64,000 nucleotides of DNA from Tautonia plasticadhaerens (GTDB taxonomy: Bacteria > Planctomycetota > Planctomycetia > Isosphaerales > Isosphaeraceae). The stretch covers positions 6,014,001 to 6,078,000 of the forward strand of contig NZ_CP036426.1 in the NCBI RefSeq assembly GCF_007752535.1, written 5' to 3'. How positions within the stretch are numbered: the stretch's first letter is position 1; the number at the start of each line of letters is the position of its first letter. Under the pieces are notes generated by a model. It saw only the letters and a list, made by a program, of their open reading frames with translations. It was not told where the DNA came from and searched no databases. This document shows positions 2,685 to 34,660 of this stretch, one piece after another. A program made the translations under genes and the position numbers.

Positions 2685-2781
2685 CGGGAGCGTATGGGAA
2701 TCGAACCCACCGGCGACCTGTCTCCAGGCCGCCCGACTGGTTTTGAAGACCAGGGCCGGCACCAGCCGTGCGCCCGCTCCC
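2685..2781 (-). tRNA. selC: tRNA-Sec (anticodon UCA), selenocysteine tRNA
   Basis: 97 nt from 5' end 2781 to discriminator G at 2685. The anticodon arm CTGGT-CTTCAAA-ACCAG carries UCA (complement at 2744-2746), which reads UGA. A 9 bp extra arm (GGCGGCCTG, loop GAGA, CAGGTCGCC), a T-arm with TTCGATT and a long acceptor (GGGAGCG pairing with CGCTCCC, plus an eighth G-A position) fit the 8+5 bacterial SelC plan. CCA is not encoded. It would be charged with serine and converted to selenocysteine. No selA, selB or selD gene lies in this window. Confidence 0.9.
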
Positions 2782-32864: not shown

Positions 32865-33473
32865 TCACCGAGGACCCCGAGGGAGCAGGGAGCGACGGGC
32901 CACTCCAACGACGCCGTCGACCCGCTGGTCGTGCGGCTCGTCCGGGACCTGGTCGATCCACTGGAGATCGAGGACCAGCGAGTATCGGGGTGCCTCGGGG
33001 CGGAGGGTGGGGAGGAGCCGGTCGTAATAGCCGGCCCCCCGGCCGATCCGATACCCTCGGGGGTCGAACGCGATCCCGGGGACGAGGGCCCAGTCGACGG
33101 CACCCGGCTCGACGACCGAGGTCCCCGGGGACGGCTCGGGGATCCCGAACGGCCCCGGCTCAAGGTCACGTTCCAGGTCCTCCACGAGGTGCAGGCGGAG
33201 CAGGCGGGCCTCCCGGTCGACCCGGGGGCAGGCGACCGCCTTGCCCTGCTCCCGAGCCCATTGAACCATGCCCCGAGTCTCGAACTCCTCGGGCAGGTGG
33301 GCGAGGTACAGCAGCAATACTTCGGCCGAGTCGAGGCCGGGGAGCCCCGGGAAGAGCCGTCCGAGCGCCTCCTCCTCCCGTCGCCGATCGGTGGGATCCA
33401 TCGCCAGGATCCGGCCCACGACCTCGCGTCGGAGCCTCCGCTTCGCCCCTCGGGCCGGGTCGGCGTTGGACAC
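32865..33473 (-). CDS. 5-formyltetrahydrofolate cyclo-ligase
   Basis: 202 aa. I start at GTG 33473 (SNADPARGAKRRLRREVVGRI), because the family N-terminus begins here and a GAGGG lies upstream; the ATG 33605 would extend into the 6S RNA. It converts 5-formyl-THF to 5,10-methenyl-THF with ATP. Motifs: KRRLRREVVGRIL, VLLLYLAHLPEEFETRGMVQWA (substrate loop), WALVPGIAFDPRGYRIGRGAGYYDRLL (nucleotide site). The gene follows the 6S RNA, an arrangement seen widely in bacteria (ssrS-ygfA). Confidence 0.92.
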   Translation of the reverse strand: MSNADPARGAKRRLRREVVGRILAMDPTDRRREEEALGRLFPGLPGLDSAEVLLLYLAHLPEEFETRGMVQWAREQGKAVACPRVDREARLLRLHLVEDLERDLEPGPFGIPEPSPGTSVVEPGAVDWALVPGIAFDPRGYRIGRGAGYYDRLLPTLRPEAPRYSLVLDLQWIDQVPDEPHDQRVDGVVGVARRSLLPRGPR

Positions 33474-33549
33474 GATGGCGACCCTCGGGGTGGCTAGACC
33501 AGGAGCCCGGCCCCCGCCGCTTTGAAGAAGAGGCGAGGAACGGGCTCGA

Positions 33550-33725
33550 TGGTAAGTCCTCCACCGAAATGCCGTCCGGGGCGGTTTTGAGAACCCGCAG
33601 TTCAAGTGGGGCGCTCAGATCCGCTGGCCAGGCCGAGGGATCGTTCGGGCCCCTACGGGTTTAGCGTTGGTTCTCCAAATAGCGACGCCCCTCGCGAACA
33701 TGGCAGAGGGCCCGGCGAACCGGAC
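33550..33725 (-). ncRNA. ssrS: 6S RNA (ssrS), RNA polymerase regulator
   Basis: No protein is visible here. The transcript folds as a 6S RNA: closing stem CCTC/GAGG (33706-33709 with 33558-33561), TGCC/GGCA (33702-33705 with 33570-33573) and GGGGC/GCCCC (33687-33691 with 33578-33582); a central bubble of 11 and 6 nt; then GAGAACC/GGTTCTC (33669-33675 with 33589-33595) and a terminal arm. The 3' side GGCATTTCGG matches the bacterial 6S consensus (E. coli GGCATCTCGG), and the 5' ATGTTCGC also matches E. coli. A 5-FCL gene follows. 6S RNA binds sigma70 holoenzyme in stationary phase. Exact ends are approximate. Confidence 0.85.
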
Positions 33726-33731
33726 AAGTGA

Positions 33732-33760
33732 ACTGTAGCACCGGGCCGCCCTGGCTTCAA
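33732..33760 (-). promoter_or_regulatory. 6S RNA promoter
   Basis: TTGAAG (33755-33760), 17-base spacer, TACAGT (33732-33737) on the minus strand: 4 of 6 matches in each box and ideal spacing. The -35 box overlaps the stop codon of the upstream UvrB/C-motif gene, so 6S RNA likely has its own start near 33725. Confidence 0.7.
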
Positions 33761-34539
33761 GGGGAGGGGTCGGGATCCGATCGGCTGGCGGCGACCCCGT
33801 CCTGGAGGCGACGAATCTGATCCCGGATCCGCGCCGCTTCTTCATAATCTTCCCTGGCGACCGCGTTGCGGAGCTGGTCGTCGAGCCGCTCGACCGGGTC
33901 GACCTCCCGGCCGCGATCGATCTCCCGGCGCAACTCTCTCAGGAGGATCAGCTCCTGGCAACCGGCGAGCTTCTCCTGCTGCTTGTGCTCGCGGTAGAAG
34001 GCCTTGATCGCGGTGATCCCCTCGTCGATCCGTCGCATCGCGTCGCGGTGGGCGCCCCGATCGACGGCCTGCTGGGCCAGGGCCCTGGCCCGCATCATCG
34101 TGACATAGGGGCGGTACTGGTCGAAGGCCGCCTTGTCCCGGTCCCGGGCCGCGTGGGACCGGACGAAGTCGAAGAGCTTCAGGTTCCGCTCGGTGTCCCG
34201 GGCGACGAGGTCGTATCGGCCGAGGTGGAACAGGGCGACGTAGCGGTGGTAGTACTGGATGCCCTCCCGCATCAACTCCTCGCAATCCGAGGCATCCAGG
34301 CCGTAGGGCTCCCCGTCCGAGTCGAATTCCCGGGCCCGGGACTCGTGGAAGTCCAGGAGCGACTCGACCCCGAAGGGTCGGTCGCCGTCGGGCCTCCCGG
34401 AAAGCTCCATCTGGAGCAGCCCGAGGTCGAGTCTCATCTGCAGCTTGTCCCGGCCGTCTAGGCCCGAGACGATCCGGACCTGGAACTCGTCGGGGTCGTG
34501 GTCCCATCCGGCCAGGATCGGCGTGATGTCCCTGCTCAA
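33757..34539 (-). CDS. UvrB/UvrC-motif protein
   Basis: 260 aa. The best start is TTG 34539 (SRDITPILAGWDHDPDEFQVRIVSG) with GGAGG 8 bases upstream; ATG 34656 would add unrelated residues. The conserved N-terminal region WDHDPDEFQVRIVSGLDGRDKLQMRLDLGLLQMEL is shared with planctomycete homologues. A long helical middle follows. The C-terminus (VERLDDQLRNAVAREDYEEAARIRDQIRRLQ) is a UvrB/UvrC motif, a helical hairpin for protein contact. It is not a DNA repair endonuclease itself. The stop codon overlaps the 6S promoter. Confidence 0.8.
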   Translation of the reverse strand: MSRDITPILAGWDHDPDEFQVRIVSGLDGRDKLQMRLDLGLLQMELSGRPDGDRPFGVESLLDFHESRAREFDSDGEPYGLDASDCEELMREGIQYYHRYVALFHLGRYDLVARDTERNLKLFDFVRSHAARDRDKAAFDQYRPYVTMMRARALAQQAVDRGAHRDAMRRIDEGITAIKAFYREHKQQEKLAGCQELILLRELRREIDRGREVDPVERLDDQLRNAVAREDYEEAARIRDQIRRLQDGVAASRSDPDPSP

Positions 34540-34660
34540 GGGTCGAACCTCCAGGTCCCCCGGCGGCCGAGCGGGTCGGGACAGGCCCGGCCTCGATCCG
34601 GTCCCGGTCCCGGGGGCGACTGATCGAAGTGTATGTCCGTGATGGCGTCTCGACAAACGA

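Follow-up and report, generated by a model that had tools for sequence, protein, structure and literature searches.

A 6S RNA gene of Tautonia plasticadhaerens with its own predicted promoter and a probable clade-specific hairpin at the 5' end

6S RNA is among the most widespread regulatory RNAs of bacteria; as a mimic of the open promoter, it blocks RNA polymerase. Its described architecture begins at the closing stem, and in Escherichia coli the RNA is trimmed from longer precursors. In Bacillus subtilis, 6S-1 RNA is a rod with a P2 helix and a central bubble made of a 5' and a 3' strand (PMC8876501), all of which recur in the RNA described here. Ms1 RNA of actinobacteria is likewise 6S-like and binds RNA polymerase, but it binds the core enzyme without sigma and belongs to a separate family (PMC4191392; PMC9130861). 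In planctomycetes, a passage in PMC5673643 (citing Wehner et al., 2014) reports 6S RNA as absent from Pirellula and Rhodopirellula, and probably from Thermogutta. The Rfam 6S model (RF00013) alone, however, matches 184 of 392 Planctomycetota genomes, so that statement covers part of the phylum; 6S RNA in planctomycetes is itself not new, and an earlier note on this DNA was fair in calling it little studied there.

Here we consider one such locus in T. plasticadhaerens (Isosphaeraceae), within a stretch of 64,000 nucleotides that was analysed as a whole ("the window"). We place a probability of roughly 0.85 on the overall reading that the locus is a single 6S RNA gene with its own sigma-70-type promoter and a clade-specific 5' hairpin. 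Judged from sequence, it adds one more member to the known 6S family, and by virtue of the predicted hairpin it counts as a new structural variant. Relative to canonical 6S RNA (RF00013; E. coli ssrS), it retains a full-length match, the closing stem, P2, the central bubble and the apical arm, but differs in carrying a 16-nt hairpin before the closing stem and in its shorter core (~152 nt).

Identity and fold of the 6S core

The earlier note had proposed 6S RNA from a closing stem, a central bubble, the motif GGCATTTCGG and the downstream 5-FCL (5-formyltetrahydrofolate cyclo-ligase) gene, and had named the Rfam model as the check. That identity is borne out by agreement among a significant Rfam match, family relatives above the cut-off, structure, single copy and neighbourhood. 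RF00013 matches 33554-33712 on the minus strand over the whole model (1-187) at 44.3 bits (E-value 1.9e-7 when 1 kb was searched)—though just under the gathering score of 46.4, a 2.1-bit shortfall against a cut-off that is the curators' choice and not a biological property. Because of this shortfall a default scan, and annotation based on it, misses the gene: the default Rfam scan of the window did not report 6S RNA and returned only a tRNA-Sec (2686-2781, minus strand; RF01852, 65.9 bits, gathering score 47). In a search of the whole genome (9,395,224 bases, six contigs) the locus was the only RF00013 match (E 4.1e-7), i.e., there is a single 6S copy. A chance match within high-GC intergenic DNA would fit both the score below the gathering cut-off and an unremarkable RNA folding energy (z -1.26), but it is refuted by the comparative evidence—the genome-wide E-value, the 16 of 45 relatives scoring above the cut-off, covariation, and the conserved promoter and neighbours—and deserves practically no credence. 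The locus is almost certainly a single 6S RNA gene on the minus strand, with the following parts.

33558-33709, minus strand: 6S RNA core (RF00013; 139 bits with family model R1, whose training set includes the window; family alignment)
33695-33709, minus strand: closing stem, 5' strand CCUCUGCCAUGUUCG, near-invariant in 35 sequences (consensus-fold pairs 1-7, 11-12 and 14-15)
33686-33691, minus strand: inner helix of the closing arm, 5' strand GGGGCG, pairing with 33578-33583 (consensus fold, permutation)
33669-33676, minus strand: P2 (downstream duplex; name from PMC8876501), 5' strand GGAGAACC (consensus fold)
33654-33668, minus strand: central bubble, 5' side AACGCUAAACCCGUA, mostly unpaired in the consensus fold
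33596-33607, minus strand: central bubble, 3' side ACUUGAACUGCG (Rfam alignment, consensus fold)
33589-33595, minus strand: P2, 3' strand GGUUCUC (consensus fold)
33578-33583, minus strand: inner helix of the closing arm, 3' strand CGCCCC (consensus fold, permutation)
33558-33574, minus strand: closing stem, 3' strand CGGCAUUUCGGUGGAGG, containing GGCATTTCGG (Rfam alignment, family alignment, consensus fold)

Closing stem, central bubble and apical stem can all be recognised, together with the 3' closing strand CGGCATTTCGGTGGAGG, and they are conserved across 35 aligned sequences. Consensus and single-sequence folds both give a rod with a closing stem, a large central bubble and an apical stem, the apical arm also being present in the consensus fold, where the closing stem reads CCUCUGCC-AUG-UU-CG / CGGCAU-GGUGGAGG. 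For eight of the 35 consensus pairs, at least one sequence carries changes in both partners, such that the helices are supported by covariation, while P2 is nearly invariant and says little on this point. The inner closing helix covaries as well: its own sides average -11.1 kcal/mol vs -9.2 kcal/mol with the 3' sides reshuffled, a pairing unmatched in 20000 of 20000 permutations, a kind of count that kinship inflates. At this position E. coli 6S RNA has GCGGGC/GCCUGC. We rejected GGGGCG/CGCCCC as a novel helix closing the central bubble and assigned it to the closing arm, the bubble lying further in, because of this E. coli sequence comparison and the P2/CB nomenclature (PMC8876501).

Within the family, RF00013 matches 38 of 45 genomes at E <=1, including the 16 above the cut-off. 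One weak match (L038, in genome G040) was false, and the true locus there was found by model R1, which was built from 35 Isosphaeraceae sequences. R1 places a 6S gene in 42 of 45 Isosphaeraceae genomes, among them every one of the 26 good-quality genomes, always in one copy, a count that measures completeness and is not independent proof, most of these sequences being in its training set. More independent support comes from the class as a whole, where R1 finds 6S RNA in 150 of 248 genomes, several of them also above the Rfam cut-off (e.g., G408). It also reaches planctomycete families in which Rfam is weak or silent (L185, L182 in G500, and others); in the genome with L185 (G365) R1 recovers a 6S gene and Rfam none even at laxer settings. 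Several near-complete genomes of family f3 yielded no 6S RNA with either model. Tautonia sociabilis was placed in the same genus as the window genome.

Promoter and 5' hairpin

Upstream of the core, the following elements lie between the stop of the preceding gene and the closing stem.

33755-33760, minus strand: -35 box TTGAAG, in which the UVR-motif gene has its TGA stop (33757-33759)
33732-33737, minus strand: -10 box TACAGT, 17 nt from the -35 box
33710-33725, minus strand: 5' hairpin GUCCGG-UUCG-CCGGGC (comparison across Isosphaeraceae loci; forms in the MFE structure)

The proposed TTGAAG-N17-TACAGT promoter overlapping the upstream stop is there in the sequence (33760-33732), and a TTGxxx-N16/17-TAxxxT promoter is conserved among Isosphaeraceae relatives; a strict-rule scan for promoters and terminators found nothing, and the promoter rests on comparison. 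Independent expression of the 6S gene from its own predicted promoter is a sound inference. The overlap of stop and putative -35 box recurs in 10 of 34 Isosphaeraceae loci from five genera and is, by sequence comparison, a recurrent compact arrangement, the remaining loci having a gap of 25-553 nt except for one deeper overlap. At 33757-33760 and at loci L012, L014, L018, L019, L023, L028, L030, L077 and L081, the UVR-motif TGA is part of the TTGA in the 6S -35 box.

The 5' hairpin was missed in the earlier note. It lies downstream of the -10 box and runs up to the closing stem without a linker, its first base falling at the predicted +1 (33725). The usual form of 6S RNA would start in or just before the closing stem; here the predicted +1 lies 16 nt upstream of it, and a helix is predicted within a few nucleotides of the 5' end, as in an end-protecting stem-loop. 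Measured from +1 through the 3' strand of the closing stem, the predicted RNA has 168 nt (~172 nt with a tail), near the 175 nt given in the earlier note, or ~223 nt if its 3' end is the hairpin that follows the 6S RNA. Of 40 Isosphaeraceae loci, 36 have such a hairpin, and they represent 19 of 21 genera and 29 distinct arm pairs; across these loci the first paired base stands a median of 5 nt past the -10 hexamer (i.e., at about the predicted +1), and linkers of 1-7 nt separate hairpin and closing stem in other genera. UUCG and CUCG loops are common in Isosphaeraceae; elsewhere UUCG, GCAA and GCGA loops are found.

The pairing pattern points to RNA. The inner pairs comprise 193 Watson-Crick, 50 G.T (G.U in RNA), no A.C and 3 mismatches; standard pairs account for 243 of the 246 in total, a share that drops to 18-50% when the arms are slid. 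G.T pairs are present in 18 of the 19 hairpin-bearing genera and A.C in none, although the hairpin search scored the two equally and a DNA palindrome would show both. With one sequence per genus, arms paired with their own partners reach -8.3 to -8.7 kcal/mol vs about -5 kcal/mol when swapped, unmatched in 20 x 2000 permutations; this excess is partly built in, the arms having been picked as the best stem per sequence, but the G.U/A.C count is unaffected. We therefore regard it as highly probable that the hairpin is transcribed and selected as RNA. No description of a 5' hairpin on 6S RNA was found in the literature searched, which covered a minority of 6S papers, and priority for it is not established.

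Genera g19 and g5 lack the hairpin, as do most Gemmataceae and the other classes, and it is therefore dispensable for 6S function. In g19, g5 and most Gemmataceae the -10 box stands only 6-10 nt before the closing stem, and the RNA is accordingly expected to start directly at the stem. Two main leader classes emerge—mostly 6-16 nt without a hairpin and 22-46 nt with one—with a few long leaders lacking a hairpin as exceptions (e.g., genus g23); at many loci of other families no clear promoter is seen. A hairpin unrelated in sequence stands at the corresponding position in 11 of the 18 loci from family f2, 6 of the 17 from Gemmataceae and 2 of the 20 from other Planctomycetia families, and in other classes 1 of 30 loci passes the energy limit, a doubtful case in which pairing begins directly at the -10 box. 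Gemmataceae and other planctomycete 6S RNAs found with R1 share core motifs (CCTCTGC-RTGTTCG, TTGGCGAACC in Gemmataceae), but most differ from the window RNA in lacking the hairpin, in the short distance from -10 box to stem and in a longer apical arm. A protein tree of the neighbouring 5-formyltetrahydrofolate cyclo-ligase (5-FCL) did not decide between gain and loss of the hairpin in g19 and g5.

Possible roles of the 5' hairpin

From 6S biology, the RNA would occupy the primary-sigma holoenzyme as an open-promoter mimic at growth stop, and a short pRNA copied from the 5' side of the bubble would release the polymerase, as in known 6S RNAs (PMC8876501). P2 (GGAGAACC/GGUUCUC) would then melt and the GUUC of its 3' strand re-pair with the GAAC of the 3' bubble; the P2 GUUC can pair with either the 5'-strand GAAC or the 3'-bubble GAAC, which fits an E. 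coli-type switch. In this respect the Isosphaeraceae 3' bubble (UUGAAC...GUUC) differs from B. subtilis 6S-1 and appears nearer the E. coli-type rearrangement. The pRNA presumably starts near the 5' end of the bubble's 5' side, by analogy with E. coli U44, and the window pRNA is predicted to begin 5'-GUUGGUUCUCC. As for the hairpin, it may hold the triphosphorylated 5' end within a blunt helix that stacks on the closing stem, and such a helix would shield a long-lived 6S RNA from pyrophosphate removal (RppH-type) and from 5'-end-dependent cleavage by RNase E.

We favour such end protection as the hairpin's main role, at somewhat less than even odds, because the genome carries an RNase E/G gene (E 4.9e-103), because no RNase J match over the cut-off was found in it, and because 5'-terminal stem-loops stabilise the bacterial mRNAs ompA and papA, according to works cited in PMC3997798. 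The resemblance to these stabilisers lies in a stem-loop at the extreme 5' end in an RNase E bacterium; the window stem-loop, by contrast, is on a non-coding RNA and its stabilising role is a proposal. The hairpin might instead be a processing signal, a leader removed by RNase III or RNase E to leave a conventional 6S RNA. The precursors of E. coli 6S RNA offer a precedent, the conserved core does not include the hairpin, and hairpin-less relatives begin directly at the closing stem; yet 6-9 bp arms make a short target for RNase III, and to keep pairing through 29 arm pairs would be wasteful in a segment that is removed, when related lineages simply start at the stem, so we consider this unlikely.

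Somewhat less likely again is that the hairpin tunes the 6S/RNA polymerase cycle, through a longer mimic of downstream DNA or through protein binding. In Tautonia it abuts the closing stem and can stack on the arm that mimics downstream DNA, but linkers in other genera and widely differing hairpin sizes in other families speak against a precise fit. An inverted repeat at +1 to +16 could also be a DNA operator through which a repressor or activator controls the 6S gene, and a short palindrome exactly at the predicted transcription start is in a common operator position. We rejected this reading, to which we give very little weight, on the 50 G.U against 0 A.C pairs on the transcribed strand; arm sequences moreover vary freely among genera, the loops are UUCG and GNRA-type, and unrelated sequences take the same place in other families. 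For Planctomycetia as a whole, we tentatively suggest that 6S RNA has repeatedly gained or lost a 5'-terminal hairpin at a fixed place, with effects on RNA retention or RNA polymerase engagement, which would make it an unrecognised 6S domain.

Gene neighbourhood and wider meaning

The gene neighbours named in the earlier note were confirmed by their Pfam domains, and a further hairpin separates the 6S RNA from the downstream gene.

33757-34656, minus strand: upstream gene for a UvrB/C-motif protein (PF02151, 38.7 bits; start uncertain)
33503-33547, minus strand: 3' hairpin after the 6S RNA (MFE -31.8 kcal/mol, z -5.05)
32865-33473, minus strand: downstream 5-FCL gene (PF01812, 113 bits; start GTG at 33473 inferred)

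The mechanically called 5-FCL reading frame extends into the 6S RNA. Many relatives have a terminator-like counterpart of the 3' hairpin with a T run, but in the window it has no T run and no terminator was found under the scan rule, so read-through into 5-FCL is possible. As in E. coli, where ygfA is next downstream of ssrS, the 5-FCL gene comes after 6S RNA at 41 of the 42 Isosphaeraceae loci, at 40 of them within 300 nt, and a UVR-motif gene precedes it in 34 of 42. Within the stretch examined around each locus, the other planctomycete loci tested had no 5-FCL gene near 6S RNA; in the outside genomes checked with PF01812, Gemmataceae included, 5-FCL lies elsewhere where it was found, with one exception. 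This is L048 (G149:C356:8939-12119), which alone among the planctomycetes tested from outside Isosphaeraceae has 5-FCL near 6S RNA; the gene (C356:7966-8499) stands ~2 kb downstream on the same strand. In the 5-FCL protein tree (window 32865-33473; L165-L169) a long branch separates Isosphaeraceae from f2 and Gemmataceae, whose 5-FCL may not be the direct counterpart of the Isosphaeraceae gene beside 6S RNA.

The tight 6S/5-FCL linkage in Isosphaeraceae, absent from other planctomycetes tested, bears on the ssrS-ygfA pairing of E. coli, which is unexplained (PMC2848244), and a planctomycete model finds 6S genes that lie below the Rfam cut-off. T. plasticadhaerens has a generation time of 29 h (PMC7716859), and in slow-growing bacteria a long RNA life may count. 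A clade with the hairpin, together with its naturally hairpin-less relatives, offers a ready experiment on 6S RNA stability and turnover.
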